In this document: positions 1,222-56,200 of the stretch, piece by piece
Layout of the letters: every line of letters begins with the position of its first letter
Numbering within the stretch: the stretch's first letter is position 1
Assembly (NCBI RefSeq): GCF_002210285.1
Contig: NZ_MWQE01000013.1
Location: forward strand, 1-58,725
Direction: 5' to 3'
Length of the DNA stretch: 58,725 nt
Origin: Fibrobacter sp. UWR2
GTDB lineage: Bacteria; Fibrobacterota; Fibrobacteria; Fibrobacterales; Fibrobacteraceae
The notes under the pieces: generated by a model
Database searches by the model: none
What the model was told of the DNA's origin: nothing
Seen by the model: the letters and a program-made list of their open reading frames with translations, nothing else
Program-made: the position numbers and the translations under genes

Positions 1222-1361
1222 TTCTGAATATTAGGTACATTAATGCCCGACGCGTTTTTCCGTCTAATGGAAAAATGCGTCTTTTTTTTATTTCGGATTT
1301 TCGGAATAAAGGGGACGCCTCTGACATCAATCGGCCGCCAAAGCGGTCAAATGGAGGCAAA
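1222..1361 (+). promoter_or_regulatory. structured leader element, copy 1
   Basis: This 140-nt leader of the decayed YhcG gene is nearly repeated at 56060-56200. In order it holds an AT-rich box (TATTAGGTACATTAAT), a 13-bp hairpin (1249-1261 with 1269-1281, loop GTCTAAT) followed by eight Ts, a small hairpin (GGCCGC-CAAA-GCGGTC), and the Shine-Dalgarno ATGGAGGC. The GCCTC at 1317-1321 is complementary to the GAGGC at 1354-1358 of the ribosome-binding site. The first hairpin has the form of an intrinsic terminator inside the leader, so the layout suggests attenuation plus ribosome-site masking. Alternatively the hairpin merely insulates the gene from upstream transcription. Confidence 0.6.
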
Positions 1362-41426: not shown

Positions 41427-43946
41427 ATGAAGTTCGATTTTACACCAGATCCAAAGATTTTAATTGCGTTGACGCACACATCCATACAACCATTGGATGC
41501 ATTATGCGAATTAATCGATAACTCCATAGACTCGTTTTACAGTGCGAAGATTGATGGAGAAAAGATTGACGATCCGATAATAGTCGTAGAACTACCCACC
41601 AGAAAAAATTTAAGCGAAAATTCAGGCGTCTTACGAATACAGGATAACGGCCCTGGAATGACATCAGAAATAGCAGAAAAGGCTATTAAAGCAGGATATT
41701 CTGGGAACAATCCTTATGATACTTTAGGCCTTTTTGGAATGGGCTTTAATATTTCTACTGGGAAATTGGGCAACCGGACTACTTTTTATACAAGCAGATC
41801 AGACATGTCTGTCTGGGTGAAAACGGAAATTAATCTTGAAGAGATAAACAAGAAAAAGGATTACTCACTAGATGTAGAAGAAATTCCTAAGAAAGAACTT
41901 GCTATTGGAAACCATGGAACGATTATAGAGATAAGAGATTGGTGGCCAGAGGGCAATCAAAATCGAAATTGCATTTTAAAACTGATTCAATATGGGATGC
42001 CGAAAATCCGAGAAGAAATCGGCAGGCGATATGCTTCCATTTTGAGAGAGGGGAAAATAAAGATCTCCATAAATGGTGAAAAATGTGTTCCTTTTGAACA
42101 TTGTATTTGGGACAAAAAGAGATTTGTTGTACGAAAGAATGGAAATGTCCCCGCATGTTTTGAATTTGATCAGGTAATAGGATCAAATCGTCGTTGCGGG
42201 AAATGTAGAGCAATTCTTCCGTCGGAGGAAACCACATGTCCACATTGCGGTTCAAATTCAACTAGGACGATTGAAGAAAGAATAAAAGGATGGATTGGAA
42301 TTCAAAGATTTGATTCTGATACTGAATTCGGTATAGATTTAATTCGCAACGGTCGTGCAATAAAAATTGCAGAAAAAAATGCTTTCTTTGAATATGTTGA
42401 TGAATTTAAGAGAACCATTAAGGATTATCCCATTGACTCACAGTACGGACGAATTGTCGGCGAAATCCATTTAGATTTTGTTCCTGTTGATTTTATGAAA
42501 CAGGATTTTCAAAGAACGAGTGCAGAGTGGTCAAGAGCCATGACTTTCATTCGTGGGAACAGCTCTTTACAGCCAACACAACCCAATGCAGACTCCAACA
42601 TTTCGCCACTATTTAAGCTTTATCAAGCGTATAGACGAGTTAGAAATTTTGGCCGTGGTGACATGTATATGGGTTATTGGGAAGATGGTTCAGCACATAG
42701 AATATCTCGCGATAAAGAAAAAGAACTTTATGAAAAATTCAAGCAAAAACTTCCTGGTTATTACGATGACAGTGAATGGTGGAAATTAGTCGAAAATGCT
42801 GATCAACCCCCTGTTGAAGAATTGCCTATTTGTCCTCAATGTGGCTCCCAGAATTTAAAGGAAGATGAAACTTGTAGTGTTTGCGGATATATTTTACAAG
42901 GAAAAACATGCGTATTTGAGGCGTGTGGAAAATATATTCCAAAATCGGCAATAAATTGTCCTCATTGCGGTGCAGATCAGACACCAAAAATTCTTGAACC
43001 ATGGATATGTGAAATTTGTTCAACAAAAAATACAGCTAATGCGTCAAAATGTTCAAAGTGTGGCTCTGCCAAAGGGTTCAAGAATCCATTATCAGAAGAC
43101 AATTTACTGAATAATTCAGAAAAAATCGATTCCTTGTCTTGTTCTAATTTGATTGTTAGATACCCTGATGGCGAAAATAGCCAACCTATTCAGGTAGATG
43201 TTTACGCCGTTCGAACGCCAATGCAAATACCAACGTCTCGACATACAACCCCAATTATTGTGGAAAAGAGTGTTGGGAAAATGTCGGTTTTCTTAGACCA
43301 CCGTCATCCAGTCTTCTCACAATACAATGTTTCGAAAGAGCATATGATTGCAAGTGAAATAGCCATGTATTTGTTTAACGCTCATCCGCTTAATGGCAGT
43401 AAAAATGGGCATAGTTTAAGCAATTTAATATGGCGAGTTCTAGATACAAGATGGAAAAATACATTAGAAGTTAATGTTGATTCTGTCTATAAAGAAGCCT
43501 CAGAGTTTATGGATGATTTGCGCTTAAAAATGAGCGACCTTCTGAAAGAGCATGCATCGACCTATTTCAATGAACTCGATAACGAACAGAAAAAAAGTTT
43601 GACCAATTCATTGATTTCTAGCGAAATTGATCTTTCGACAATTGGCGAACTTAAAGATTCAGGAGCGTATTTACTTTATGTGCCGTATTCTTTTTTGATC
43701 TCCATATTCCATGACAATCCAGAAAAATTCTTTAATGGGGCAATATGGAAAAATTCGTTAGCCATTGGCGGAGAAGAGCTTCTTGGGGAAGACAATATAC
43801 TGTCCATGCGAGAAAAACTGATTCGGCAATATGAAAATTGTTTGCATGATGTCCTGCAATTCCTAGAAAATAAGTATTCTGACACCATAACACTTCAACG
43901 AGTAAAATTATCCATTGAGTTTTTAAGAAAAGAGATGGTTACATAA
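41427..43946 (+). CDS. MORC/MutL-like GHKL ATPase with four zinc ribbons
   Basis: An 839-residue protein. The GHKL ATPase is at the N terminus: N-box ELIDNSID (28-35), DNGPGM (73-78) and GLFGMGFNIS (101-110). A first zinc ribbon CGKC...CPHC (near 255-275) interrupts the transducer region. Three more follow: CPQC...CSVC, the CGKY-CPHC pair, and CEIC...CSKC (near 472-550). The C-terminal 280 residues are helical and unknown. The N-terminal part matches the MutL/MORC-type ATPases of composite restriction systems described by Iyer, Abhiman and Aravind. It lies 13 nt after the methyltransferase and its stop overlaps the next start (TAATG). It may act as a DNA clamp or sliding sensor. Confidence 0.85.
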   Translation: MKFDFTPDPKILIALTHTSIQPLDALCELIDNSIDSFYSAKIDGEKIDDPIIVVELPTRKNLSENSGVLRIQDNGPGMTSEIAEKAIKAGYSGNNPYDTLGLFGMGFNISTGKLGNRTTFYTSRSDMSVWVKTEINLEEINKKKDYSLDVEEIPKKELAIGNHGTIIEIRDWWPEGNQNRNCILKLIQYGMPKIREEIGRRYASILREGKIKISINGEKCVPFEHCIWDKKRFVVRKNGNVPACFEFDQVIGSNRRCGKCRAILPSEETTCPHCGSNSTRTIEERIKGWIGIQRFDSDTEFGIDLIRNGRAIKIAEKNAFFEYVDEFKRTIKDYPIDSQYGRIVGEIHLDFVPVDFMKQDFQRTSAEWSRAMTFIRGNSSLQPTQPNADSNISPLFKLYQAYRRVRNFGRGDMYMGYWEDGSAHRISRDKEKELYEKFKQKLPGYYDDSEWWKLVENADQPPVEELPICPQCGSQNLKEDETCSVCGYILQGKTCVFEACGKYIPKSAINCPHCGADQTPKILEPWICEICSTKNTANASKCSKCGSAKGFKNPLSEDNLLNNSEKIDSLSCSNLIVRYPDGENSQPIQVDVYAVRTPMQIPTSRHTTPIIVEKSVGKMSVFLDHRHPVFSQYNVSKEHMIASEIAMYLFNAHPLNGSKNGHSLSNLIWRVLDTRWKNTLEVNVDSVYKEASEFMDDLRLKMSDLLKEHASTYFNELDNEQKKSLTNSLISSEIDLSTIGELKDSGAYLLYVPYSFLISIFHDNPEKFFNGAIWKNSLAIGGEELLGEDNILSMREKLIRQYENCLHDVLQFLENKYSDTITLQRVKLSIEFLRKEMVT

Positions 43947-45679
43947 TGTTCGATAATTTGCGCGACATTGCAAACAGTTCATGGCAGGCTTTTGAACGAA
44001 ATATTTGCCGATTGCTTCTGTATATGGGATTCTCAAATGTTCGACTTGTCGGACAACGAGATGACCATGGAGCCGATGTTGCAGCAATACGATATGGGAA
44101 AAAATGGCTGTTTCAGGCGAAACACTGGAAAAAGGCTGTAGGAGATTCTGTTCTTGAAGAAACGCTAAAAGCTCTATATGAGTACAAAGCAGATATACCA
44201 GTAGTTGTTGCCTCTATGGGGTTTGACTCTTCAGCCAAACAGTATCAACAAAATTTGATGCGCTATAATAAAGTTCCGATGCAACTATGGGATGCATTAA
44301 GACTGGTAAATGAAACAGAAAAACTGCCTGAAAAAACTTTGAATACTCGCAGCATTCGCAAATATCAGGAATCGGCGATAAAAGAAATTACAGGCGCATA
44401 TTTTTCGGGTGAAAAAAGAGCTCTTGTGGTTCTTGCTACTGGTTTAGGAAAAACATTTGTTGCTGCAGAAAGTATTCGAAGAATTCGGGCAATTGAACAA
44501 AAAAGAGTTCTTGTTTGTGCACATACTAATGACTTAGTGTACCAATTGGAACGCGCCTTTTGGCCGTTTCTTAAACCTTCAGAAACGACTCTTGTTTGGA
44601 ATAATTATGAACCACAAAATAACGAAAGCTTAGAAAATGCAGATTTTACTTTTGCTTGCGTTGACACTGTTTACAATTATATAATTAATCGAAAAGAGCT
44701 CCCCATATTTGATATCTTATTGGTTGATGAATGTCATCACGTTGGTTCATCCATGTATGACCAAGTGTTTGATTATCTTGCTGCGGGAAAAGAAAACGGA
44801 GCTTTCGCATTAGGGTTAACAGCAACACCGTGGCGGGCCGATGAAGTTCAAATATCAAAATACTTTGGTGAGCCCAAAATAAGCGTAGACATAATTGATG
44901 GGTTGAAAAACGGATTCTTAGCAAATATTGATTACAGAATATTTACAAATAATATTGATTGGAATTCACTAAAAAATATAAAAGGAAAATCTTTTTCACC
45001 AAAGCAGATTAACAAAACTCTTTTTATTAATCAATGGGATGATTCCGTCGTTGATACATTCCATGAAGCATGGAATGAACAAACCTATCCAAGAGCAATT
45101 ATCTTTTGCGGAACTATTGAACACGCAATAACGATGAAAAATAAGATAAACGCTTTAGGTTTTTGTAGAGCGGAAGCAATTTATTCCAATGCATCAGATC
45201 GTGGATTTGAAGCAATGGGGCAATACAAAAGAAATAGAATATTAAGCGATTTTGACGAAGGGAATATAAATGTTATCTGTGCCGTTGACATTTTTAATGA
45301 AGGAATTGATGTTCCTGATGTTAATATTTTAGTATTTCAGAGGGTTACACATTCTAGAAGAATATTTATCCAGCAATTAGGAAGAGGATTACGTCTATCT
45401 GAAGGTAAAGACAAAGTTATTGTGCTAGATTTTGTTTCTGATATACGACGATTTGCCGCCGGTATTTCTCTAAAAAATTCGGTTTGTTCAACGCGTGACG
45501 CAACACGAATCGATTTGCCGAATAAAGTGACTTTCTACAAGGCGAATAAAGAGGACCCTCAATCGGAATCGTTTTTGAGACAGTGGCTGGATGATGTTGT
45601 GGCTATTGAGTCTTCAGATGAAGACGCCAGTGTATTAAAGTTCCCTCCTGCATTCGAAGAGCAATACGATGACTTATAA
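43946..45679 (+). CDS. Mrr-type nuclease fused to SF2 helicase
   Basis: A 577-residue fusion. Residues 10-110 form a Mrr_cat PD-(D/E)xK nuclease: WQAFERNICRLLLYMGF, DHGADVAAI (Asp) and LFQAKHWKK (QxK). Residues 130-500 form a DEAD/DEAH superfamily-II helicase: VVLATGLGKTFVAAESI (Walker A), LLVDECHHVGS (DECH), LGLTATPWR (motif III), AIIFCGTIEHA (IV), FNEGIDVPDVN (V) and QQLGRGLRLS (VI). It would translocate on and cut DNA, as in type I/III-like restriction. It overlaps its neighbours on both sides (1 and 11 nt). Confidence 0.9.
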   Translation: MFDNLRDIANSSWQAFERNICRLLLYMGFSNVRLVGQRDDHGADVAAIRYGKKWLFQAKHWKKAVGDSVLEETLKALYEYKADIPVVVASMGFDSSAKQYQQNLMRYNKVPMQLWDALRLVNETEKLPEKTLNTRSIRKYQESAIKEITGAYFSGEKRALVVLATGLGKTFVAAESIRRIRAIEQKRVLVCAHTNDLVYQLERAFWPFLKPSETTLVWNNYEPQNNESLENADFTFACVDTVYNYIINRKELPIFDILLVDECHHVGSSMYDQVFDYLAAGKENGAFALGLTATPWRADEVQISKYFGEPKISVDIIDGLKNGFLANIDYRIFTNNIDWNSLKNIKGKSFSPKQINKTLFINQWDDSVVDTFHEAWNEQTYPRAIIFCGTIEHAITMKNKINALGFCRAEAIYSNASDRGFEAMGQYKRNRILSDFDEGNINVICAVDIFNEGIDVPDVNILVFQRVTHSRRIFIQQLGRGLRLSEGKDKVIVLDFVSDIRRFAAGISLKNSVCSTRDATRIDLPNKVTFYKANKEDPQSESFLRQWLDDVVAIESSDEDASVLKFPPAFEEQYDDL

Positions 45680-46385
45680 TGACCTTTTAAAAGACATTGA
45701 AAAACTTATCGGTTTGCATCTGCATAGTATAAGACCTGGTGCAGAACTCACTGTTGAAGCGATTGAACGGGAGAAATGTTCCTTGTCATTAAGAAATGTG
45801 CAGGGTAATTTAAGAAAACGAAGCTTAGATGAAATAAGGAATCTTTGGAACGAACTTCAAAAAAAGCGAATCGTTCATGTTGATGGCTTTTTGCATGGTT
45901 CGGGTTCAAGTCGAAATCAGCCGGAAACGATCCTCGCCAATTTGCCGTATATTGAATGGTTGAAATACAATGGAAAAAAACACCTTGCTTATGTAGAGAA
46001 ATCAACACATGAATTCGGCACGCTTCGCGAAATGAATCCTGTCGAACAAATCGGCTTCTGCGAAATGCTGGCTAAAATTCAAAATAAACAGCATTTCTAT
46101 TCTTATGCAGTAGTCACAAACGATATCAAACAGTGCATAGATGGTTTTAATAAAGATGCATTATTTGGCTTGACTATTATCGAACAGGGAGCTTACGCAT
46201 TGTCTTTGCCCAATAATGAAGTTTTATTTTTGTCTGCTGATAAGTATAAATTACCCAAAGGGGTTTATCCAATTTTGTATGATCGAGAAATTTCGGGAAA
46301 GAAGCCGATAATAAAAATAGACGACAATTTGTACTATTTTGACAAAATATATCCGATAGATGTTTTGTTCGCGGGAGGCAAATAA
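45669..46385 (+). CDS. unknown protein in defence operon
   Basis: A 238-residue protein overlapping the helicase gene by 11 nt and abutting the nucleotidyltransferase gene (TAATG). The first 75 residues (MTYNDLLKDIEKLIGLHLHS, a basic middle with SLSLRNVQGNLRKRSLDEIR) could be a DNA-binding module. The middle has PYIEWLKYNGKKHLAYVEKS and the C-terminal third is strand-rich. No family is recognised. Given its place it is probably a core part of the system (specificity or regulation). Confidence 0.75.
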   Translation: MTYNDLLKDIEKLIGLHLHSIRPGAELTVEAIEREKCSLSLRNVQGNLRKRSLDEIRNLWNELQKKRIVHVDGFLHGSGSSRNQPETILANLPYIEWLKYNGKKHLAYVEKSTHEFGTLREMNPVEQIGFCEMLAKIQNKQHFYSYAVVTNDIKQCIDGFNKDALFGLTIIEQGAYALSLPNNEVLFLSADKYKLPKGVYPILYDREISGKKPIIKIDDNLYYFDKIYPIDVLFAGGK

Positions 46386-47032
46386 TGCCAATTGATCAAG
46401 AGTCTTTAAAAAAAGATTTGCTCAATATGAATGAAAATGAGTTTTATATTAAGCATATTTTAAAATCAAGGAATTGGTATTTTTCTCAGTATAGGAATTT
46501 TAAAGACGATGTACTTATTGATAAAATTGACGAGTTTAAAGAAATTATCTCAAAAAATTTTAATGTTAGTTTTCATAGCGTAAAAATGGTTGGCAGTGCC
46601 AAAGTGGGCTTTAGTTTGTCTCCTGATAAAGGACTTAAAGAATTTCATGATGGGAATAGCACCGAAAAGGCGTCGGATATAGATGTTGCAATAGTGTCAG
46701 ATAGATTGTACAATGAGTATTGGGATTTTTTTCGAAGGGAAAACAACGTTAATTACTATTTCCCTTTAGCAAGAACTTTTTGGCAGGTTTCGAGTTCAAT
46801 ATATAAGGGGTTCATAAATTCCTGGAATATCCGTGAAATCGACAATATGCGAAAAAAATGGGATGCGATTGTAGATCCTACAAATAGGGCTCTACGTGAA
46901 AGACTTTTTATTCGCCATGAAATAAACTATCGTTTGTATAGAAATTGGGATGACTTACGAGAATACCAACTAAATGGAATTATTGAAGTGCAAAAGAAAC
47001 ACAAAGAAAAGAATGGAGGCGACAATGTTTAG
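46385..47032 (+). CDS. Pol-beta-type nucleotidyltransferase
   Basis: A 215-residue nucleotidyltransferase-fold protein. MVGSAKVGFSLSP (near 62) supplies the GS motif and KASDIDVAIVSD (near 97) the DxD, with a spacing of about 27 residues, longer than in MNT proteins and closer to SMODS/CD-NTase-type enzymes. A third acidic residue is not assigned. The rest is helical. Possible roles are making a nucleotide signal or modifying tRNA or protein. It is co-translated with the flanking genes. Confidence 0.7.
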   Translation: MPIDQESLKKDLLNMNENEFYIKHILKSRNWYFSQYRNFKDDVLIDKIDEFKEIISKNFNVSFHSVKMVGSAKVGFSLSPDKGLKEFHDGNSTEKASDIDVAIVSDRLYNEYWDFFRRENNVNYYFPLARTFWQVSSSIYKGFINSWNIREIDNMRKKWDAIVDPTNRALRERLFIRHEINYRLYRNWDDLREYQLNGIIEVQKKHKEKNGGDNV

Positions 47033-48188
47033 ATACGATGACACGAAAAAAACAATCAATGAAATTCATACCATGTTTAAAGAGGGGTCGCTGATAGTAG
47101 ACGATAGCTATCAACGCCGATCTGTTTGGGGGGAAAAAGACAAAGTTCGCTTGATTGAAACCATATTACTACAAATGATTGTTCCAGAATTGTTTTTTTG
47201 GAGAGCGAAAACTGACCCACAAACAGGATCGTCGATTACTCATATTGTTGATGGTCAGCAACGCATAAAAGCTATATCTGAATTCGCTAATGGACAATTT
47301 AAATTGTCTGAAAGGTACTTAATTAACGAAGCAAAGAAAGATCAATTTAAAGATAAATTTTTTAATGATTTGTCAGATGCAGAAAAGACCAATTTTTGGA
47401 ATTACACACTAGTTGTTATAGACATAAAATCGGAGACGGAGAGGAATGAAATCGTAGATGTCTTTAACAGGCTTAATTTGACTAATTATTCTCTTAATTC
47501 GCAAGAAAAGAGGCATACAAAATCTGGTTTGTTTGCGGAATTGGCAGAGGAAATCGCAAGTGAACCCTTTTGGGGTAATTATAAACTATTTAGCGGCGTT
47601 GATGTAAAACGAATGAAGGATGTTGAATTTTGTGCAAACTTGATTGTTTTGCAACAAAAGGGAATTATTGATCAGATAAATCAGCAAGTATTGAATGATG
47701 CTTATGCAGACATGCAAGAAGAGTATCCTAATAAAAATGAGGACAAAGAGTCGATAATAAAGGCGATTTCAGGTGTAGAACAGCTTATCGTGTCAGAGGA
47801 GATGATGCTGTTTGCTAGAAGAAAAACGCAGTTGTACACGTTGTTTAGCCTTGTTCTGGCAATGCAAAGAGACAACAAAGAGATTAACGAAGTTTGTATA
47901 GATCGTTTGAATAAATTTGTAAAATTGTATTCGCGATTTAAAAATGATCCTCAAATACAAGAAAGTTTGGACTCCAATCAAAAAATAATTTACGATAGGC
48001 TGAATAATTACAAGTTAGCGTCGTCGGAAGGTTCGAGAAAACTAGCAAATAGAATGATTCGATACGAAATTTTGTCAAATTTCATTAATGAAGGCAATGC
48101 AGATTTAATTGCCGCTATGGATTCTTTAAGAGTGAAATTGGGCCTTGATTTGAGTAATGTAGAAGATGAAAACTCCGATGAACAATGA
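47025..48188 (+). CDS. DUF262 (GmrS/ParB-like) protein
   Basis: A 387-residue protein with an N-terminal DUF262 domain: VDDSYQRRSVWGEKDKVRLI, ETILLQMIVPELFFWR and ITHIVDGQQRIKAISEFANG. The DGQQR motif is the family nucleotide-binding/hydrolysis site, as in GmrSD type IV restriction and the BrxU family. The GmrD-type HNH (DUF1524) domain is absent; the C terminus (to ENSDEQ) is helical. Without it the protein is more likely a sensor or DNA-binding NTPase than a nuclease. GGAGG precedes the ATG, which overlaps the previous stop by 8 nt. Confidence 0.8.
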   Translation: MFRYDDTKKTINEIHTMFKEGSLIVDDSYQRRSVWGEKDKVRLIETILLQMIVPELFFWRAKTDPQTGSSITHIVDGQQRIKAISEFANGQFKLSERYLINEAKKDQFKDKFFNDLSDAEKTNFWNYTLVVIDIKSETERNEIVDVFNRLNLTNYSLNSQEKRHTKSGLFAELAEEIASEPFWGNYKLFSGVDVKRMKDVEFCANLIVLQQKGIIDQINQQVLNDAYADMQEEYPNKNEDKESIIKAISGVEQLIVSEEMMLFARRKTQLYTLFSLVLAMQRDNKEINEVCIDRLNKFVKLYSRFKNDPQIQESLDSNQKIIYDRLNNYKLASSEGSRKLANRMIRYEILSNFINEGNADLIAAMDSLRVKLGLDLSNVEDENSDEQ

Positions 48189-48196
48189 GGTTTGTT

Positions 48197-49819
48197 ATGA
48201 AAGAAAATGAAACCTTATTTAAAGCCTGGAGTGGTTTCCTTCAGCAAGAAAGTATTTTGAATGAAGATGACTTGAAAAATCTTCAGGATGTTTCTTTTTG
48301 TAGGAACCACAATTTTCTTGGCCGCTACAACATCCCTGTTATCTTATTGAAGAGTGTTGTTGAAAACGACCATAAATATGACGGACGGCTTTACAAACGA
48401 TTCTTCTTATTTGATAAGTATTCTATAAGTAATGATTGGTATCATTCGGAAACAGAAACAAATCGAAGAGATTTCTTTAGATGGTTTGTAGATCTTTGTA
48501 AGCAAAGGGGTGTTTATAATAAAGTTCCCCAAATTATAATTGAAGAAGCGGAATCTTCAGACAATGGCAAAAAAAATGATCTATTCAAAAACAATACTGT
48601 AAAAGATAAACAAAAAACTAAAAATACAGGTGTTATGTCTTATTCTCAAAACATTCTCTTCGGTGCTCCGGGTACTGGAAAGTCTTTCAAGATTGACGAC
48701 CCTGAGAAAGGTTATGGCTTAAAGAATGTTGATGAATCCCGTAAATTCCGCACCACGTTCCATCCTGATTACGATTATGCGCAATTTGTAGGTGCCTACA
48801 AACCGCAAAAAAATCAGGTCGCAAATAAAGCCCTTAACAAAAACGAATTGACTGCCATTCTAAAAGAAATGAAGGATGGCAACAATTATCCTATTCACAA
48901 ATTTTCCGCGTTGTATTCAGACTCGCTTTTGAAGCTTTCTAATGCAGAACAAATTGAAATTATAAAAGAAGCGGATTCTCCAGAATCAATGGCTGTCGAG
49001 CTGAAAAAAGGAATTGCTGTTGGTGAATATTTGAAAGAGAAAATTGACGGAGGTTCCATTACCTATTCTTTCGTTCCACAGGTTTTCGCAAAGGCTTACG
49101 CTGCTGCTTGGAAGCAGTATTTCGCTGCGGGTAATGTATCGACTGTCGACAATCAGGTCTATCTCGTTATCGAAGAAATCAACCGCGGGAACTGCGCCCA
49201 GATTTTTGGCGATATTTTCCAGTTGCTTGATCGTGATAGTGCTGGATTCTCGCAGTATGCAATTGATGCAGATTGCGATTTCGCCGAATGGCTCAAGGAA
49301 AATGGAATCGGCGATGGCAAGCTCAAGCTCCCACCGAACCTGAACATTCTCGCCACCATGAATACCAGCGACCAGTCGCTGTTCCCCATGGATAGTGCGT
49401 TCAAGCGTCGCTTTGATTGGGAGTATGTGCCGATTTCGTTTACGGACGAAGAAGGAAATGAAAAAGAAGCTGCCAAGTACGAAATAGACATTCCTGACGC
49501 TAACGGGAAGAATTATCTTTGGCAAAATTTTGTCGAAGCCGTCAATGATAAGATTCTAGACCTCACCGAATCCGAAGACAAGCAACTCGGCGAATTCTTC
49601 ATCAAGCCTGACAACGGCAACATCATTTCTAAGGAACGCTTCCTCGGCAAGGTGATGTTCTACCTTTGGAGCGAGGTCTGCAAAGACGAACATAAAAACG
49701 GCTCATTTTTCCGTGCAAAAATCAATGACAAGGAAGATTTCTTTACTTTCCAGGACCTTTACAAGAAAAAGGACCTTTTAAAGCTGTTTATGGATGGATT
49801 GCTGGCTCCTAAAAACTAA
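48197..49819 (+). CDS. McrB-like AAA+ GTPase
   Basis: A 540-residue McrB-type motor (544 if the ATG at 48185, which overlaps the previous stop, is used; 48197 has GAGG at a good distance). The AAA+ domain starts at ILFGAPGTGKSFKIDD (near 154), has YLVIEEINRGNCAQIFGDIF (Walker B plus McrB signature, near 318) and ATMNTSDQSLFPMDSAFKRRF (the NTxD GTP-specificity motif). The first ~147 residues are a separate domain of AT-rich composition. An internal Met in MSYSQNILFG (48635) looks like the start of an ordinary McrB of native composition. It forms a restriction motor with the nuclease at 50657. Confidence 0.88.
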   Translation: MKENETLFKAWSGFLQQESILNEDDLKNLQDVSFCRNHNFLGRYNIPVILLKSVVENDHKYDGRLYKRFFLFDKYSISNDWYHSETETNRRDFFRWFVDLCKQRGVYNKVPQIIIEEAESSDNGKKNDLFKNNTVKDKQKTKNTGVMSYSQNILFGAPGTGKSFKIDDPEKGYGLKNVDESRKFRTTFHPDYDYAQFVGAYKPQKNQVANKALNKNELTAILKEMKDGNNYPIHKFSALYSDSLLKLSNAEQIEIIKEADSPESMAVELKKGIAVGEYLKEKIDGGSITYSFVPQVFAKAYAAAWKQYFAAGNVSTVDNQVYLVIEEINRGNCAQIFGDIFQLLDRDSAGFSQYAIDADCDFAEWLKENGIGDGKLKLPPNLNILATMNTSDQSLFPMDSAFKRRFDWEYVPISFTDEEGNEKEAAKYEIDIPDANGKNYLWQNFVEAVNDKILDLTESEDKQLGEFFIKPDNGNIISKERFLGKVMFYLWSEVCKDEHKNGSFFRAKINDKEDFFTFQDLYKKKDLLKLFMDGLLAPKN

Positions 49820-49834
49820 GGGACTTGCTTTTGC

Positions 49835-49872
49835 AGTTTTTGTATATTATATTGGTGATATAGGAGTTCAAG
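49835..49872 (+). promoter_or_regulatory. promoter of the UPF0175/DUF3368 pair
   Basis: TTTTTGTATATTATATTGG holds a TATATT -10 box (49846-49851 region) with TTGCTT/TTGCAG-like -35 candidates 15-20 nt upstream, then TAGGAG before the ATG. It gives the toxin-antitoxin-like pair its own transcription inside the McrBC genes. Confidence 0.45.
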
Positions 49873-50151
49873 ATGACTATGGGCACATTGGCATTTGAGG
49901 TTCCCAAAGAGATGGAATCGTTCGTTGAGGCAAATGGCTGCCGCAGCGAATTGCTTCGTAATGCATTGATCCTTTTGCCCTACATACAAGATTTGACAAT
50001 CTCCCATGGTCGCGCGGCAGAACTACTTGGCATATCGAAAGAAACGCTAATTAACTTGTACGGGGATATGGGTATTCCCTATCTTGATGGCAGCATCCAG
50101 TCCGTACACGAAGAAATGGCCGTTTACTCCGCAGCGAAGAAAAAAGAATGA
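49873..50151 (+). CDS. UPF0175 antitoxin-like protein
   Basis: A 92-residue protein of the UPF0175 family: FEVPKEMESFVEANG, a helical LLRNALILLPYIQDL, and a helix-turn-helix-like ISHGRAAELLGISKETLINLY followed by GDMGIPYLD. Members are coupled to DUF3368 PIN-like proteins and are considered antitoxins that also repress their promoter. The stop overlaps the next start by 4 nt. Confidence 0.85.
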   Translation: MTMGTLAFEVPKEMESFVEANGCRSELLRNALILLPYIQDLTISHGRAAELLGISKETLINLYGDMGIPYLDGSIQSVHEEMAVYSAAKKKE

Positions 50152-50654
50152 TTGTTGTTTCCGATACGACCCCGATTATTTCGTTGTTGAAAATGAATCG
50201 GTTGCAATTGCTGCACAGCCTTTTTGGCCGTGTGTGCATTCCGTTCGCTGTATTCGAAGAGTTGACGGGTAATCCCAATTACCAGGATGAAGTCTCCATT
50301 TTGCGAGGTTCCGATTTTATTCAAGTTGAAGAAGTTGCCAATGCCGGGGATGTCCAAGTAATAAAAAATGATGGTCTTGATATCGGTGAGAGCGAAGCCA
50401 TTGTCCTGGCGAAACAACTTTCTGCAGATGTCCTTTTGATGGATGAGGCCAAGGGAAGGCAGGTCGCGTCTCGATACGGCCTTCAAATTATGGGGACCGT
50501 TGGCATTTTGCTGCAAGCTTTTAAAGATGGTCTTCTTTCTTATCACGAGATAATTGATTGCGTCTTTTCGCTGCGTCGTAATCATCGCCGGATAAGTGAA
50601 AACCTGCTCATGGATCTTATGAAAGAGATTGAGCGTATTGAATCGAGCCGATAG
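50148..50654 (+). CDS. DUF3368 PIN-like toxin candidate
   Basis: A 168-residue DUF3368 protein with PIN-fold features: VVSDTTPIISLLKM (first Asp), CIPFAVFEELTGNP (Glu), DIGESEAIVLAKQL (Glu), ADVLLMDEAKGRQVA (Asp-Glu) and LQIMGTVGILLQAF. It is likely an RNase toxin partner of UPF0175. It is followed after 2 nt by the McrC-like gene, so the pair is inserted in frame with operon structure. Confidence 0.85.
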   Translation: MIVVSDTTPIISLLKMNRLQLLHSLFGRVCIPFAVFEELTGNPNYQDEVSILRGSDFIQVEEVANAGDVQVIKNDGLDIGESEAIVLAKQLSADVLLMDEAKGRQVASRYGLQIMGTVGILLQAFKDGLLSYHEIIDCVFSLRRNHRRISENLLMDLMKEIERIESSR

Positions 50655-50656
50655 GC

Positions 50657-52726
50657 ATGATTTTCCTGTTCGAACAGTTTGCGTATAAACCGGGATTCCT
50701 GGAGAAAGTCCTTCCCCAAAAGGAGAAAGGCTCTAATTGGGATTTGCCGAAGGGCTTCGTTCAAAGGGAATCTAAAGGGCTTTGCAAACTGGACGGTGTC
50801 GGCTACCTGTACAACGCAAATTGCAAGTATGTCGAAGAGGGGCAAAAGGAAAAGGACTCCACCGATAGAATCGTCTTTGTGTTGCCCAAGGTGTTTCTAG
50901 ATGAATCCGGCACAACGGCTTTCGGTCAAAAGATTTCGGCAGACGTAAACTTTAAATTCGACAAGGAATCAAAGGAAGTACCCAAGGAGTTCCTTTCGAA
51001 TCTTTCGTTATGGGTTTGTAGTTCTATTGCGAAATACAGGCTTTCTAACCCCGCCGATAACAGTATCGATGTTCCCGAAGCTCCAGATGTACGTCATTTT
51101 GACAGTGATAAGGCCACCCCGTCCTTGATTGACGTGATGAACGCCATGAAGTTGTTTTACGCCGAGAACCAGAACCTGTTTGTGTTCACGGCAAAGAACA
51201 AACACAGCGGCAACAACCGCATCGACTGGCGCCGCACGGTCGCGCATACGCAGCCCTTTATGCAAGGTGACGCGCCCATCTACATGGAACTGGAAAACAA
51301 GAAGAAAGTTTTCGACCTAGACGACCGCCTGCTGGTGCTGTACTTTTCGGCGATGCACTACATCGAAGAGACGTTCGGCTTCAAGATGCCGAAGTCGGAG
51401 TTCTACGCACCGATTCGCGTGAACGAATTCCGTCGCCTGCTGGGTCACCGCGGGCTGGTGGAACTGCGCCGCATAAAGCACAAGTATTTTGCCGACAAGT
51501 TCTTGCGGCTCTACAACATCGTGAAGGCGTTCTTCGAATGGGGCGGTAACTTCAGTGCAAACGATTACAGCAGCGAATACCTGCTCACGAGTAAGTACAA
51601 TAACGTATTCGAGGCGATGATTGACAAGCTGGTGGGCGATGACTTGCCCAAGCAAATGGAATATTTGAAATCCCAGAAAGATAACAAGGAAGTCGACCAC
51701 CTCTATAAAGATCGTCAACTCATTTTTGCTGATGAAGACCAGAAAATTTGGTTTATTGGGGACAGCAAATACTACAAAGATGGGAACGGCGTTGAGGGGG
51801 CTTCGATTCACAAGCAGTTTACGTACGCTAGGAATATTATCCAGTACAATATTGACGATTTATTGAATAGTGGCGTTGAAGACAAAGATTACGAAGGGTT
51901 GCGTTATCGTGATAAAACGACCGAAGGCTATAGCGTCACGCCGAACTTCTTTATTCGTGGAGAAGTACCGGAATTTAACCAGAAACTGGCCAAGGCCCAA
52001 TTCCAGGACCCGTACTTTAGAGATAATCCTGATCCGAAAAATGAGGACCTGATAAGAAAGGATGATGCGGATTTGTGGAAAGATCGCAATCGTCATTTCG
52101 AGAACCGTCTTTTTGACCGCGACACACTTTTGCTCCAAGTGTACAACGTGAATTTCCTGTACGTGCTAAAGGCGTTCACCTCCAAGCGCTCCTCGCTGCG
52201 TGAAGAATTCAAACGTGATGCTCGTGATAAATTCCGCGAGAATTTTCTGGAATTGCTAAATGATAAATATGTGTTTTGGGCTGTGTGGGTAAAAAACGGG
52301 CTCTTAGAAGATTTCGTTGACTATCATTTTCGAGTCCTTGCGGGAAAAGCATTTAAGCCTAGAGACCTTAAATGCCTTATAATCGCTCTAGAAAAAGAGC
52401 ATATAATGAGCAACGACCCAAAAGAAAATGGTGAAAACCTGTGGAAAGAAATTGAACGTTCTTGTTCCATGATTCTACGCGTGACACCATACGATTTATG
52501 GGGTGAAGCGCCTAAAAAGCAAGAAAAAATCGATTTTCCGCACGCCCGTTTCGACTCCAAGTCGCGTCGATTCCGTGTGCACAAGGGAAAAATCAAGTCT
52601 ACAGTATTAAATAAGGAAAGTCAAGTTTTGGCTATCGAAAAAGATAAAGAATGGTCTGGGCTATCTTTTGAGAAAATCGATGGCGCTTTTTTAAATAGTT
52701 GTGGTGTAGATTTAGAAGAGGCATAA
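50657..52726 (+). CDS. McrC/LlaJI-like restriction nuclease subunit
   Basis: A 689-residue protein pairing with McrB. It resembles the LlaJI/McrC-type nucleases: the N-terminal part has NWDLPKGFVQRESKGLCKLDG and an interaction domain (DRIVFVLPKVFLD); the middle is a DUF2357-like helical domain (RVNEFRRLLGHRGLVELRRIKH); the nuclease site is LIFADEDQKIWFIGDSKYYK (near 355-375), i.e. a PD-(D/E)xK pattern with D...DxK. The C-terminal ~150 residues are basic. McrB-McrC type complexes cut modified or foreign DNA. The ATG at 50657 lies 2 nt behind the DUF3368 gene. Confidence 0.8.
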   Translation: MIFLFEQFAYKPGFLEKVLPQKEKGSNWDLPKGFVQRESKGLCKLDGVGYLYNANCKYVEEGQKEKDSTDRIVFVLPKVFLDESGTTAFGQKISADVNFKFDKESKEVPKEFLSNLSLWVCSSIAKYRLSNPADNSIDVPEAPDVRHFDSDKATPSLIDVMNAMKLFYAENQNLFVFTAKNKHSGNNRIDWRRTVAHTQPFMQGDAPIYMELENKKKVFDLDDRLLVLYFSAMHYIEETFGFKMPKSEFYAPIRVNEFRRLLGHRGLVELRRIKHKYFADKFLRLYNIVKAFFEWGGNFSANDYSSEYLLTSKYNNVFEAMIDKLVGDDLPKQMEYLKSQKDNKEVDHLYKDRQLIFADEDQKIWFIGDSKYYKDGNGVEGASIHKQFTYARNIIQYNIDDLLNSGVEDKDYEGLRYRDKTTEGYSVTPNFFIRGEVPEFNQKLAKAQFQDPYFRDNPDPKNEDLIRKDDADLWKDRNRHFENRLFDRDTLLLQVYNVNFLYVLKAFTSKRSSLREEFKRDARDKFRENFLELLNDKYVFWAVWVKNGLLEDFVDYHFRVLAGKAFKPRDLKCLIIALEKEHIMSNDPKENGENLWKEIERSCSMILRVTPYDLWGEAPKKQEKIDFPHARFDSKSRRFRVHKGKIKSTVLNKESQVLAIEKDKEWSGLSFEKIDGAFLNSCGVDLEEA

Positions 52727-52729
52727 AAA

Positions 52730-52763
52730 AAAGAACCAAATCAACTACGGATTTGGTTCTTTT
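52730..52763. terminator. strong bidirectional terminator
   Basis: AAAAGAACCAAATC-AACTACG-GATTTGGTTCTTTT: a 14-bp perfect stem with A and T flanks, 4 nt after the McrC-like stop. It closes the defence operon. Confidence 0.9.
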
Positions 52764-52771
52764 ATACAAAT

Positions 52772-52799
52772 TGGTGCGGAGGAGGGGGGTCGAACCCCT
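52772..52799 (-). other. tRNA 3'-end relic (T arm, acceptor strand, CCA)
   Basis: On the minus strand AGGGG-TTCGACC-CCCCT forms a perfect T arm with a TTCGANN loop, followed by CCTCCGC, A and CCA, exactly a tRNA 3' end. A matching acceptor 5' strand GCGGAG occurs only 100 nt further upstream (near 52903-52908), so no normal tRNA can be formed. Between them lies TAGCTCAG, a D-arm-like string, and a GAGT/ACTC stem like a long variable arm. It is either a rearranged tRNA or a 3' fragment left by integration at a tRNA. Confidence 0.4.
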
Positions 52800-53149
52800 T
52801 TAGGCCCACTCCGAGTATTTTCCCATCAGTGAATAGACTTCATTTTCGGATCGAAACCCTACTTTCTGAGCTAGCCGATTCGGCATATTACACCAGGTCT
52901 CCGCAGTAGGGCCCCGACGCACCAGCAAAGATATGAACATGTGCTAATAGCTTTTTTCATAGACTTATCCTCCATTGGATTGATGGTTATTGCAGATAAG
53001 GTGAAATACGCGTTCACAGCAAGCCCAATTATGAAGCTTTCTCCAAAGATGATACTCAAGATCAGGAAAACTTTTTCATATACAAATATAGTAAAAAAAA
53101 TATAATTTGTCAACATTTTTTGAATTTGTCTGCTAGTGATAGCCTATGA

Positions 53150-53420
53150 TAGACTCCCTGCAACTTGTTTTTCGCGTTAGGGATAGTGACCCCTTGGGGC
53201 GGAGACGCGCGCTTACGAGCCTAGATCCTCGCCTCCGCGAGGATGACGATTGTTTGCGCGGCTCCGTTGCAAGAGCGGCGCGGGGGTGCCGTAGGCGCGC
53301 ACGGGGCGCCTTGCGATATAGCCCGACCCGGCGAAGGGTGGACCCTATCGCCTGCGGCTCCAGGGTGACAGGGGCCAACCGAGCCGGGGAACGCCCAGAC
53401 AGACGCCCATTGCGTGCGAA
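53150..53420. repeat. REP-like palindrome cluster
   Basis: Contains TCCTCGCCTCCGCGAGGATGAC (53226-53247) and, inverted, ACCCTATCGCCTGCGGCTCCAGGGTGACAGG in part (53342-53371), both of the ATCC...GGATGACA class seen elsewhere in the window. The stretch 52910-53496 otherwise shows no convincing gene; a TATATTTG box on the minus strand near 53085 has no clear product. Confidence 0.5.
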
Positions 53421-53496
53421 ACGAAGTAATTTCTAACACAAATGGTTGCATTTTGGTTTGTTTTTATGTATTTTTAGTAAAAAAAGAGGTGAATGT

Positions 53497-53829
53497 ATGG
53501 CTCAGACGACTTTTAGCATCAGGATGGACAGTGACCTTAAAAAGGACTTCGACAAGCTGTGCGAGGATTTCGGGATGTCGATGAGTACCGCCATAAATGT
53601 CTTTGCGCGGGCAGTCGTGCGCGAGCGCCGCATACCATTCGATGTCGCCTCGGCCGATGCTCCGGCGTATGCCGCAGACAGGCGTGTGTTCTATAACGCG
53701 AACCCGGTTGCGAGTCGCATGCTCAGAACCATGCAGCAACTTTCCGCCGATGCCGAGAAGGCCGGCTCCGCAGGCATGACACTCGACGAAATAAACGCCG
53801 AGATCGCCGCAGCCCGGCGAGGGAAGTAA
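53497..53829 (+). CDS. DinJ/RelB-family antitoxin, orphan
   Basis: A 110-residue antitoxin. The N-terminal ribbon-helix-helix is TTFSIRMDSDLKKDFDKLCE followed by DFGMSMSTAINVFARAVVRE, and RIPFDV is the DinJ linker. The C terminus (from M79, MQQLSADAEKAGSAGM) is the toxin-binding part, and its last 32 residues recur at the end of the AlbA_2 gene at 56201. AGAGGTG precedes the start. No YafQ/RelE toxin gene follows; the next 330 nt hold only a structured, ORF-poor stretch. Confidence 0.88.
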   Translation: MAQTTFSIRMDSDLKKDFDKLCEDFGMSMSTAINVFARAVVRERRIPFDVASADAPAYAADRRVFYNANPVASRMLRTMQQLSADAEKAGSAGMTLDEINAEIAAARRGK

Positions 53830-53875
53830 CGCGCGGGTGTTGACTTCCCGCTGGTCTCTTTGTATATTTATCCCC

Positions 53876-54113
53876 GTATTACGACAATCCCTGCGACAGT
53901 CGGCATAGGCCTTGCGGCCCGTACGTGCATCCGCGGTGGGGTTCATCAACCTTCTTGTTGATGTTGTTGGATAGCTGGCAGGAACACGACCTGCTCGAGT
54001 GTGTGGCGAAAGCCGCGCCAGGTAACGCCGAGGAAGACCCTCGCCAACAGCACCGCAAGAGCATCCCAAATATAAACAAACCCTAATTGCGCCTGCAGTG
54101 CAGACGCAATTAA
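53876..54113 (+). ncRNA. candidate structured RNA downstream of dinJ-like gene
   Basis: A promoter-like pair TTGACT (53840-53845) and TATATTT (53863-53869), 17 nt apart, precedes about 240 nt with no ORF carrying a ribosome site. Local hairpins include CATCAAC-CTTCTT-GTTGATG (53944-53963), GGC-GAAA-GCC (54005-54014), and a long AATTGCG-CTGC stem (54086-54112). It does not match tmRNA, RNase P, SRP or 6S RNA by their conserved motifs. It may be a small RNA or the remains of a toxin gene. Confidence 0.3.
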
Positions 54114-54159
54114 AACCGCTTTTAACGTTCGCTCATGCCGAGCGGGCTAGAGGATTATT

Positions 54160-55197
54160 ATGGCAAGAAAAACTGATAAATTGGCTGTCGCGGAGTTTCC
54201 CCTCATCGACGAAACGTTGTTGAAATCGCGGATATACACCATTCGCGGGGTCAAGGTGATGCTCGATGCAGATTTGGCCGAGATTTACGGGTATACGACC
54301 AAAGCATTCAATCAGCAGGTCAAGAATAATATCGAAAAATTCGATGACGATTTCCGGTTTCAGTTGACGAGGACGGAATATCGCGAAATTCTAGGGTCAA
54401 AATTTTTGACCCTAGAACAGGGAAAATACTCAAAAACCAGTCCCTACGTTTTTACCGAACAGGGTATCTACATGCTTATGACGGTGCTCAAGGGCGAACG
54501 GGCGACTGCTCAAAGCAAGGCTTTGATTCGCCTTTTCAAGCAGATGAAGGACTATATCGTTGCTGAAAACCATCAATTGCTCGGGACAGCGGGAATTGCC
54601 CAGATTGCAGCACAGACTGTTCAAAACACGCGCGAAATCGCAACGGTTTCCGCTGAAGTAAAGGAGCTTTCCGGCGAAGTTCGCGATATCCGGAGCGATT
54701 TGGGAAAAATCAATGTGGACCTCCGGATGGTCATGGAAAATTTCGTCGATCCCTCGACATACGAGCATTTCTTGATTCTGAACGGGCGTAAGCTGGAGGC
54801 GGATGTCGCTTATGCGCAGATTTACGGCATGGCGAAAAAGTCGGTGCTGGTTATTGACAACTATGTAGACGTTAAAACGCTGAATTTGCTCCGGAACGTG
54901 CGCAAAGGCGTTTCCGTCCTGATTTTCAGCGACTTGCTCGGTGGAAGCCGCATGACAGACGACATGCTTGCCGATTATCGGGCCGCCCGCCCGGACGTGT
55001 CGATTGACAAGAAACCCGCCATGCACAAGTTCCACGACCGCTACATTCTCGTGGATTTCAATACCAAGAGCGAAAAGCTGTACCATTGCGGAGCATCTTC
55101 CAAGGATGCGGGCAACAAGATTACGACCATCGTGCAACTGGACGACGTTGATGCATACCGGAACATGTTTGAGGAACTGTTGGAGCAACCAAGATGA
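54160..55197 (+). CDS. ORF6N/KilA-N-type protein with PLD-like C terminus
   Basis: A 345-residue protein. Residues 20-115 are an ORF6N DNA-binding domain of phage antirepressors: IYTIRGVKVMLDADLAEIYG, TTKAFNQQVKNNIEKFDDDF, RFQLTRTEY and VFTEQGIYMLMTVLKGERA. A coiled coil follows (TREIATVSAEVKELSGEVRD). Residues 225-340 are the same PLD-like module as in the RhuM gene at 32452: KKSVLVIDNYVDVKTL and KFHDRYILVDFNTKSEKLYH, ending CGASSKDAGNKITTI. HDRY replaces the usual HxK. AGAGGAT precedes the ATG. It may be an antiphage or prophage-derived switch protein. Confidence 0.8.
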   Translation: MARKTDKLAVAEFPLIDETLLKSRIYTIRGVKVMLDADLAEIYGYTTKAFNQQVKNNIEKFDDDFRFQLTRTEYREILGSKFLTLEQGKYSKTSPYVFTEQGIYMLMTVLKGERATAQSKALIRLFKQMKDYIVAENHQLLGTAGIAQIAAQTVQNTREIATVSAEVKELSGEVRDIRSDLGKINVDLRMVMENFVDPSTYEHFLILNGRKLEADVAYAQIYGMAKKSVLVIDNYVDVKTLNLLRNVRKGVSVLIFSDLLGGSRMTDDMLADYRAARPDVSIDKKPAMHKFHDRYILVDFNTKSEKLYHCGASSKDAGNKITTIVQLDDVDAYRNMFEELLEQPR

Positions 55198-55264
55198 CCT
55201 TGTATTGGATACGGGAAACTGGTGAAAAAAAACAATTCAGTCAACCAAATAAAGGAAAATTACT

Positions 55265-55597
55265 GTGAAGAAAAAAGCAGAGAACGAGAATGAATTTGAG
55301 TTGCCGAAGGAACTCTTGGAATCAATAGCTGGGCTTAATGAACTTATGAGCCAGCATCAGGATCAAGCCGCCGCAATGCTGTACAGATTAATGTTTCGCC
55401 ATGAACGGGATCTCCATGTACTCGACCGCTATTCAGATGTCGTACTTGAAGGCGTTTCTGGCATGGGTAGCGAGTTCGCGAAAGAGGATTACAGGAATTT
55501 CTTGCAATACCTGTCGTATGTTATTCCTAGCGAATATGCTCCGCATAAGGAAATGTACGAAGAAGAGCTCAGAATCGCCGAAGATGATGATGAGTGA
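55265..55597 (+). CDS. small acidic helical protein, first copy of a duplication
   Basis: A 110-residue product from a GTG start with AAAGGA 8 nt upstream. It is acidic and helical (FELPKELLESIAGLNELMSQ, DQAAAMLYRLMFRHERDLHV, EFAKEDYRNFLQYLSYVIPS) and ends EDDDE. No family is recognised. Bases 55292-55595 recur without change at 58422-58725 with a different 5' end and start codon. It lies in a cassette zone of antitoxin-like genes and could be an antitoxin or inhibitor. Confidence 0.6.
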   Translation: MKKKAENENEFELPKELLESIAGLNELMSQHQDQAAAMLYRLMFRHERDLHVLDRYSDVVLEGVSGMGSEFAKEDYRNFLQYLSYVIPSEYAPHKEMYEEELRIAEDDDE

Positions 55598-55602
55598 ACA
55601 GC

Positions 55603-55660
55603 GTGTATTACAATGTGTATTGCAAGGTGTATTGACAAGTGTATATACATTTTCTACAAT
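55603..55660 (+). promoter_or_regulatory. promoter with four 12-bp operator repeats
   Basis: GTGTATTACAAT, GTGTATTGCAAG, GTGTATTGACAA and GTGTATATACAT follow each other without gaps (55603-55650). The third contains the -35 TTGACA (55632-55637), and the -10 TACAAT (55655-55660) lies 17 nt further: an ideal sigma-70 promoter for the CopG-type gene at 55694. Tandem 12-bp sites on one face are typical of cooperative ribbon-helix-helix repressors. Confidence 0.7.
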
Positions 55661-55693
55661 AGGGAGGGTGTGCAATAACTGTAAGGAGAGCTC

Positions 55694-56029
55694 ATGAAGA
55701 CGAAGTGCAAAAAGCGCGAGAAGGTTAGGCTGCCCAAGGGGTTCAAGCTGGTTGACGATTTCTTGTCTAAAGAGGAGATTGAAGCGCTTGAAAACGACAC
55801 CTCGATGAGAGATCCGATGGTTATCACCGGCGGTCATGAGTCGGAGACGCTAGAGGAATCTATTGCGCGTATCAGTCGCGCTATTGCCGAGGCCAAGGAA
55901 GAAAAGAAGATGTATTCCATAAGGCTCAAGGTCAAGACAGTGGAATCGATCAAACGCAAGGCCGCCGCCGCGGGCATCCCTTACCAGACTTACGTGAACG
56001 TGGTGCTCGACAACGCCGCGTCTGCCTGA
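55694..56029 (+). CDS. CopG/BrnA-like ribbon-helix-helix antitoxin, orphan
   Basis: A 111-residue protein. The C-terminal part (MYSIRLKVKTVESIKRKAAA followed by AGIPYQTYVNVVLDNAA) is a ribbon-helix-helix of the CopG/BrnA type; the N-terminal half (KLVDDFLSKEEIEALENDTS, PMVITGG) is acidic, as in antitoxins that wrap a toxin. GTAAGGAG precedes the ATG. No toxin gene of the BrnT or RelE type is adjacent on either side. It probably binds the repeat array upstream. Confidence 0.75.
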   Translation: MKTKCKKREKVRLPKGFKLVDDFLSKEEIEALENDTSMRDPMVITGGHESETLEESIARISRAIAEAKEEKKMYSIRLKVKTVESIKRKAAAAGIPYQTYVNVVLDNAASA

Positions 56030-56059
56030 TTGTAAAATTTTCTTGCTCCCCTAGCCAAC

Positions 56060-56200
56060 TTTCCGAATATTAGGTACATTAATGCCCGACGTGTTTCTCC
56101 GTCTAATGGAGAAATGCGTCTTTTTTTTATTTCGATTTTCGGGATAAAGGGGACGCCTCTAACATCAACCGACCGTTTTTGCGGCTAAATGGAGGCTAAA
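56060..56200 (+). promoter_or_regulatory. structured leader element, copy 2
   Basis: Near-copy of 1222-1361. Same order: AT-rich box, 13-bp hairpin (56088-56100 with 56108-56120, identical GTCTAAT loop), eight Ts, 72 nt, start codon. In the stem a T-A pair of copy 1 is a C-G pair here (compensatory change) and a C-G is T-G. The GCCTC at 56155-56159 can pair with GAGGC (56192-56196) of the ribosome site, and the small hairpin before the site is kept as GACCGT/GCGGCT with one mismatch. It precedes an unrelated gene (AlbA_2). Confidence 0.65.

Follow-up and report, generated by a model that had tools for sequence, protein, structure and literature searches.

A promoter-plus-leader module with a conserved RNA structure precedes unrelated defence-candidate genes in Fibrobacteraceae

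A mobile module, made up of a promoter and a structured RNA leader, recurs in Fibrobacteraceae upstream of unrelated defence-candidate and toxin-antitoxin genes. Two copies are present in the 58,725-nucleotide stretch of DNA from Fibrobacter sp. UWR2 (NZ_MWQE01000013.1; referred to below as the window). The structure of the leader, its conservation, its reuse before different genes and its exchange between them are shown. On balance, and with moderate confidence, we favour the idea that the module acts as a double lock and insulator. Note that this reading rests on sequence and that there are no transcription or translation data. The component parts are of known kinds; the family, its spread over unrelated defence-candidate genes, and its modular exchange are described neither in Rfam nor in the papers searched.

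Anatomy of the module and its two copies in the window

Read from 5′ to 3′, the module begins with a promoter block (TGTAAAATTTNNTTNNNNCYYTWGCCA) that is followed, after 17 nt, by TACATT. The promoter part can be written TGTAAAATTT..TWGCCA-N17-TACATT and precedes three back-to-back hairpins that extend from the predicted transcription start to the Shine–Dalgarno (SD) sequence. Hairpin 1 (RACGC...GCGTY) begins approximately 8 nt past TACATT and is followed by a T-rich tract that forms the 5′ arm of hairpin 2, the 3′ arm of which is rich in A and G. After hairpin 2 come the anti-SD sequence GCCTC, a variable inner hairpin, and the SD sequence GGAGGC, with the start codon usually 3–14 nt further on. 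Because the sequence upstream of TGTAAAATTT is mostly unrelated among copies, the left boundary of the module is sharply defined.

In copy 1 (the features of both modules lie on the + strand, as do the genes that follow them) the upstream promoter block, TGTAAAATTT...CCCCTTG, occupies positions 1120–1143 and is parted from the −35 element by a palindromic repeat of approximately 70 nt (1144–1213; CGCAAGCGCCAAATGC...GCATTTGTG), and a sigma-70-like promoter is predicted at 1213–1241 (GTGCCA, 17 nt, TACATT). In copy 2, block and core promoter span 56031–56080 (TGTAAAATTT...TAGCCA-N17-TACATT), and the stop codon of an upstream CopG-antitoxin-like gene (55694–56029) lies 1 nt before the block. The copy 1 promoter scored below the consensus threshold of the tool used, and because the hexamers fit the sigma-70 consensus only in part, the inference of a promoter rests on its position and its conservation and not on a score. 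In the genus, the block followed by TACATT at 17 nt was found approximately 90 times, compared with zero occurrences in a reversed control, and no other part of the module is as constant. An upstream ORF or leader peptide was considered and rejected, as the ATG following TACATT is not conserved.

Inserts interrupt the module in a number of copies. The ~70-nt insert, which turns TTGCCA into GTGCCA, is found at the same point in L010, L017, L023, L041:6745 and L043, and may resemble a MITE/REP-type element. A related palindromic repeat of approximately 76 nt (GCGTTTATAACGC...GGAAATAAACAAGTTTATTTCC...) lies within the T tract, between hairpins 1 and 2, in L035, L042:7430, L044, L045, L155 and L160, and a third type of insert is present in the loop of hairpin 2 in L025 and L048.

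Hairpin 1 of copy 1 (1249–1281) is placed at the predicted 5′ end of the RNA, and its 3′ arm terminates in GCGTC (1277–1281), for which a GACGC at 1314–1318 is an alternative partner. It is followed by a terminator-like tract of eight T (1282–1289) that doubles as the 5′ arm of hairpin 2 (1282–1315; helix 2 of the covariance alignment). Hairpin 3 (1317–1358) pairs the anti-SD sequence GCCTC (1317–1321) with the SD sequence GGAGGC (1353–1358) and is capped by a covarying inner hairpin (1333–1348). The corresponding features of copy 2 are hairpin 1 (56088–56120) and the T tract with hairpin 2 (56121–56153), and hairpin 3 (56155–56196; anti-SD 56155–56159, SD 56191–56196). In both copies hairpin 1 is followed by exactly eight T and is terminator-like by score. 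Folding z-scores relative to shuffled sequence were −6.1 (copy 1) and −5.0 (copy 2) on the + strand, as opposed to −3.1 and −3.2 on the − strand, and folding on the gene strand exceeds chance in both copies.

Copy 1 precedes the frame-disrupted remnants of a YhcG (DUF1016/PDDEXK) gene (1362–1994), in which 44 codons are followed by fragments up to position 1994; a leader near-identical to copy 1 precedes the intact homologue, encoding a YhcG protein of 359 aa, in another genome (L005). Copy 2 precedes an intact AlbA_2 gene encoding 513 aa (56201–57742; Pfam Schlafen AlbA_2 and HATPase_c_4, E 3e-25 and 1.5e-23). The UWR2 genome contains three good copies of the leader and a weak one. (The weak copy, L179 at G000:C9:35489–35589, comprises only the promoter and hairpin 1 and precedes a 1069-aa protein without a Pfam match.)

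Much of what an initial annotation had claimed for the two copies held. Nearly the same ~140 nt (1222–1361 and 56061–56199) do precede unrelated genes, a dead YhcG and an intact AlbA_2 gene, and sequence alignment indicates that these stretches are homologous (88% identity, E 4e-44). The eight Ts and the distance of 72 nt from the last T to the start codon (ATG at 1362 and 56201) were confirmed in both copies, as were the stem differences between them (T-A versus C-G, and C-G versus T-G) and the ability of GCCTC to mask the GAGGC of the SD sequence. The claimed 13-bp stem held in part, as it has 15 pairs when G-U is counted. What had been called a two-hairpin leader has three, the T tract being also an arm of the second, and the conserved unit begins further upstream than had been proposed, by approximately 100 nt in copy 1 and by 30 nt in copy 2, which lacks the insert. 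The suggestion of a riboregulator rather than a gene-specific promoter was only half right, in that the leader travels with its own shared promoter.

Conserved pairing in the leader RNA

Covariation was measured on 109 distinct aligned copies. Standard pairs made up 91.2% of pair cells, compared with 81.6% in column shuffles and 44–55% when partners were slid, and 32 of the 42 pairs had changed on both sides, with double changes in all four helices. (Note that the alignment was fitted to the model, which biases the cell counts toward the model; the double changes are nonetheless visible by eye.) The proportion of paired cells was 95.3% in helix 1 (9 of 15 pairs changed on both sides), 84.9% in helix 2 (11 of 14), and 92.5% and 93.4% in helices 3 and 4, which form hairpin 3. 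G-U accounted for about a fifth of the standard pair cells (862 of 3896), and because these cells would be A-C on the other strand, the conserved strand is that of the gene-sense RNA. A DNA cruciform or a structure on the opposite strand was rejected on the basis of the G-U pairs and the folding.

The conserved helix between the anti-SD and SD sequences, placed ahead of the start codon, is the arrangement that defines SD-sequestering leaders; its effect on translation is inferred. Moreover, the anti-SD sequence tracks changes beside the SD sequence (GTCTC/GAGAC in L106 and L109). The mean predicted SD opening was 0.026, compared with 0.246 in dinucleotide shuffles, although 11% of single shuffles were equally closed. 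Hairpin 1 has the G+C-containing stem followed by a T run that is characteristic of intrinsic terminators, and all 109 distinct copies have 5–8 T within 8 nt past the stem. Many copies have only approximately five consecutive T and then G, and leaders of type C (described below) have four, so that terminator activity could be weak.

The 3′ arm of hairpin 1 (GCGUY) can also pair with an RACGC that overlaps the anti-SD sequence, and 97.2% of the cells of this alternative helix are paired. Its end pair is C-G in 48 copies, U-A in 44 and U-G in 10, and thus fits in 102 of 107, whereas the counterpart in hairpin 1 fits in 89 of 106. Because the alternative end pair fits better, that end base, at least, belongs to hairpin 2. 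According to the energy model, forcing the exchange costs 8–11 kcal/mol and opens hairpin 3, and deletion of the first six nt raises the mean predicted SD opening from 0.026 to 0.146; with the 5′ arm of hairpin 1 removed, the value reaches only about 0.13–0.15. A strong two-state switch was rejected, as the SD sequence opens only in the forced state at this cost, and remains a mere possibility. Nor is the leader arranged as an antiterminator would be, since the competing RACGC lies downstream of the T tract and is not transcribed before the terminator.

Distribution, downstream genes and exchange of the module

With a covariance model built from 36 copies, a total of 208 matches was obtained, spread over 66 of 80 Fibrobacter genomes (a small number of insert-bearing loci were counted twice), and a blastn search within the genus detected copies in 58 of the 80. 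At the level of the order, matches were present in 73 of 113 genomes and 3 of 12 genera, and the remaining genera of the class gave no covariance-model match; within the genomes searched, the family is confined to three genera of Fibrobacteraceae. The named records with matches are Fibrobacter and Fibrobacteraceae, many of them ruminant-derived, and the phage, plasmid and viral collections searched contained no leader match. Rfam returned no family match for the window at the gathering threshold, nor for L002, L041 or L219 at E up to 1, and no leader of such a kind in Fibrobacter was found in the open-licence literature searched. We consider this an uncatalogued RNA family, in that it is absent from Rfam and from those papers. 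(A ryfA match in Rfam was sub-threshold, on the other strand and elsewhere in L219, and was disregarded, as was an ‘Acidobacteria’ pattern hit without leader structure. Two contigs, L180 and L200, labelled Candidatus Gastranaerophilales (isolate Tb.RUG.130), bear Fibrobacter-type cassettes and are likely misbinned.)

Reading of 105 proteins behind the leaders of alignment A3 identified 44 YhcG/DUF1016, 25 SLFN_AlbA_2, 9 Bro-N group and 6 DUF2442 group proteins, together with 4 ORF6N and 4 RelE-like proteins (the latter assigned by sequence and a HigA-like neighbour, without a Pfam match); single cases include RelB, HigA-like, CopG and HI1420-type antitoxins. PADLOC lists YhcG as PDC-S02, Bro-N as PDC-S13 and ORF6N as PDC-S05, and these PDC families are defence candidates, not proven systems. 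Copy 2 closes an island with Mrr/ResIII, GmrSD and LlaJI-type proteins, and a three-copy leader array in L036 comes after an AAA/LlaJI pair; no recombinase was found among the ten proteins surrounding this array.

The defence island of the window (43946–56029) contains a Mrr/ResIII helicase-nuclease, GmrSD, AAA_5, a LlaJI-type nuclease, ORF6N and a CopG antitoxin, and the AlbA_2 cassette comes right after it. Behind the leaders of L173, L174 and L136 lies a family of approximately 184 aa (MQNVEVGCVDIWLDEIVPCLK...) with no Pfam or PADLOC match, which is possibly a new defence or toxin family. In L031, L038 and L093 a second gene (ORF6N or another YhcG) just past the YhcG stop is preceded only by the leader tail (CAAGCCACATGGAGGCTAA-ATG); because only this tail is retained, the SD sequence of the second gene is no longer locked, and the arrangement could reflect insertion within an older leader. 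In the RelE-like cassettes L019, L028, L032 and L041:6745, what looks like the start of the toxin gene contains a near-consensus promoter (TTGACA-N17-TATATT), and the true start could therefore lie deeper within the gene.

Three further types of leader, B, C and D, are also found behind the promoter block (the leader of the window being type A). Type B occurs 28 times across 22 genomes; its SD sequence, GGAGCC, is paired by GGCUCC, and the two enclose a hairpin that has a T tract. In type D (L308) the pairing is between ACCUCC and GGAGGU, which enclose a hairpin similar to that of type B. Type C, found before Bro-N and AlbA_2 genes, has three hairpins as in type A, strongly diverged. Each of the three thus has an SD sequence paired by an anti-SD sequence and a hairpin with a T run, and this convergence of different sequences is the strongest argument that the function is to lock expression.

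Leaders and genes have been exchanged. The site behind a gene ending in ...NNPVGYAK carries YhcG, AlbA_2, Bro-N, ORF6N-type or other genes, and a leader of type A, B or C or none, depending on the genome. Moreover, from the exact ATG onward the AlbA_2 genes of L154 (leader type A) and L274 (leader type B) share 97.7% identity over 1197 nt, whereas the leaders before them bear no relation to each other; further upstream, in the promoter block, similarity resumes. On the leader tree the gene family switches at least 29 times, compared with a minimum of 5. (Note that this tree, which is based on few columns, is poorly resolved, and that the well-supported branches alone force only few switches.) Where cassettes lie in differing surroundings, their similarity usually ends close to the left edge of the promoter block on one side and close to the stop codon on the other. 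Unrelated families share A-rich first codons (M-A-K, M-S-K, M-K-S), and homologous or microhomology exchange through the leader and these codons might suffice, the recombination machinery being unidentified.

These varied accessory and defence-candidate genes, and the exchange of genes and leaders, support the proposal of the initial annotation that a mobile leader is carried with defence-type cassettes. That proposal was to be refuted by a lack of further copies or by stem changes that break pairing, and neither was borne out, given the 208 matches in the genus and the pairing and double changes described above (91.2% of cells; 32 of 42 pairs). As for a third refuting outcome, a transcription start downstream of the hairpin, the sole conserved promoter lies upstream of hairpin 1, as judged from sequence only. 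A response to a signal, which the term riboregulator would imply, has not been shown, and the data are also consistent with a constitutive lock or insulator.

A putative double lock, alternative readings and known systems

According to the double-lock reading, transcription is predicted to start from TWGCCA-N17-TACATT near the first base of hairpin 1, and hairpin 1 with its T tract would end many transcripts at about +40 and would also catch read-through from the upstream gene. In those RNAs that pass, the anti-SD:SD pairing of hairpin 3, a structure that is shown, would keep translation low. GCGUY would pair with RACGC either upstream, in hairpin 1, or downstream, in a longer hairpin 2 that weakens hairpin 3. 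The dual complementarity is shown; that anything holding or removing the 5′ arm of hairpin 1 might open the lock is inferred, as are the start site, termination, repression, insulation and any induction or trigger. The same lock would be reused, by exchange of modules and genes, for unrelated defence-candidate and toxin-antitoxin genes, and would keep potentially harmful cassettes low.

Of 96 contexts, 62 have the module behind a frame that runs on the same strand; for 31 of the 62, the distance between the stop codon of that frame and the block is −5 to 33 nt. Because this leaves no room for another terminator, hairpin 1 would be the natural end of the upstream transcript as well as a shield; the module's own output should also be low, since its promoter precedes the same locks. 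A pure insulator would be wasteful, as the leader sits behind its own promoter. The predicted switch effect is modest, with the SD sequence opening only to about 0.13–0.15, so that a switch may not exist. CsrA and Hfq are frequent partners of such leaders elsewhere, and neither was found in the nine Fibrobacter genomes searched. A CsrA-dependent leader, considered because GGA occurs in the loop and at the SD sequence, was rejected, as the loop GGA is missing in one large subgroup and no csrA was found, and an Hfq-dependent leader was rejected, as the search of those nine genomes did not find Hfq.

A bolder reading, which we regard as possible but not likely, is that of an undescribed, integrase-free cassette platform, in which leaders and ORFs are swapped with start-codon precision behind a constant promoter block, each type of leader independently locks transcription and translation, and the short hairpin-1 RNA, the tail of which is complementary to hairpin 2 of other copies, could act in trans. 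If so, incoming defence and toxin genes would arrive silent and insulated.

It is unlikely, in our view, that the leader is a true switch, that is, a riboswitch-like or protein-controlled attenuator that induces a defence and toxin-antitoxin regulon on one signal (infection, stress or a nucleotide). In favour of this idea, one promoter block and leader family are common to many loci, and two mutually exclusive GCGUY pairings are conserved. However, no large invariant loop or junction resembling a ligand pocket is present outside the stems and promoter; the sequence-unrelated leaders B and D take its place before the same gene families, a replacement that a pocket for a specific ligand would not withstand; the alternative partner comes after the T tract, which is not the order of a classical antiterminator; and Hfq and CsrA were not found in the nine genomes.

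We consider it improbable that the module is a DNA recombination site (attI/attC-like), with cassette insertion leaving a footprint and folding being incidental. Genes do swap exactly at the boundary of leader and ATG, one chromosomal site has differing cassettes or none, and the integron aminoglycoside ‘riboswitch’ provides a precedent (PMC9410878). Against this stand the 862 G-U cells of the gene-sense strand, which would read as A-C on its complement, the stronger folding of the + strand, an anti-SD sequence that follows SD-adjacent changes (L106, L109), and the absence of a recombinase among the ten proteins around the L036 array. Equally improbable is that the module is only a strong promoter with a 5′ stabilizing hairpin, its similarity reflecting shared cassette ancestry without repression, for while the promoter block varies least among the parts and hairpin 1 lies at the predicted 5′ end, as in stabilized mRNAs, SD sequestration recurs in sequence-unrelated leaders and the SD sequence is on average tighter than in shuffles (with the exception of the 11% of single shuffles noted above).

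The double lock, as the reading that we prefer, would bear on genes whose function and regulation are unknown, namely YhcG (PDC-S02), Bro-N (PDC-S13) and ORF6N (PDC-S05), for which a genus-wide leader offers a handle. The leader predicts which genes are held silent, and how they can be dropped behind others harmlessly, and is a sequence tag for finding new defence cassettes in Fibrobacter. Near-identical genes that have unrelated leaders of the same logic provide a clean natural experiment.

With attenuators and SD-sequestering leaders of the kinds in Rfam, the Fibrobacter leader shares a terminator-like hairpin with a T tract, anti-SD pairing and competing helices; unlike those leaders, it has the terminator-like hairpin first, at the 5′ end, and has no Rfam match. 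It is not of the type III toxin-antitoxin kind, as the aligned leaders have no tandem repeats and the downstream proteins belong to other families. The topAI-yjhQ leader similarly controls a toxin-antitoxin gene, and acts through a translated upstream ORF (PMC12121999), whereas the only near-start ATG of the Fibrobacter leader is not conserved. The 5′-UTR of the ISPpu9 transposase buries the ribosome site of a mobile gene (PMC8450116). IS200 also has a 5′-UTR lock, together with a terminator-like hairpin that blocks read-through. The likeness to these elements lies in a mobile gene with a 5′-UTR that hides its ribosome site; the difference is that in Fibrobacter the leader is common to many unrelated genes and the module includes the promoter. 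No transposase of the IS200/ISPpu9 type is found behind the leader, where the genes are YhcG, AlbA_2, Bro-N, ORF6N, DUF2442 and toxin-antitoxin genes. In the integron platform, a shared attI leader precedes unrelated genes, and this system illustrates that a leader so shared need not be a riboswitch (PMC9410878). Both systems have one promoter and a conserved leader ahead of exchangeable, unrelated genes. Unlike the integron, no integrase was found near the L036 array that was examined, every Fibrobacter cassette retains its own leader and promoter, and the leader is under RNA covariation. The covariation and the convergent leaders argue that the RNA matters, not that a ligand does.
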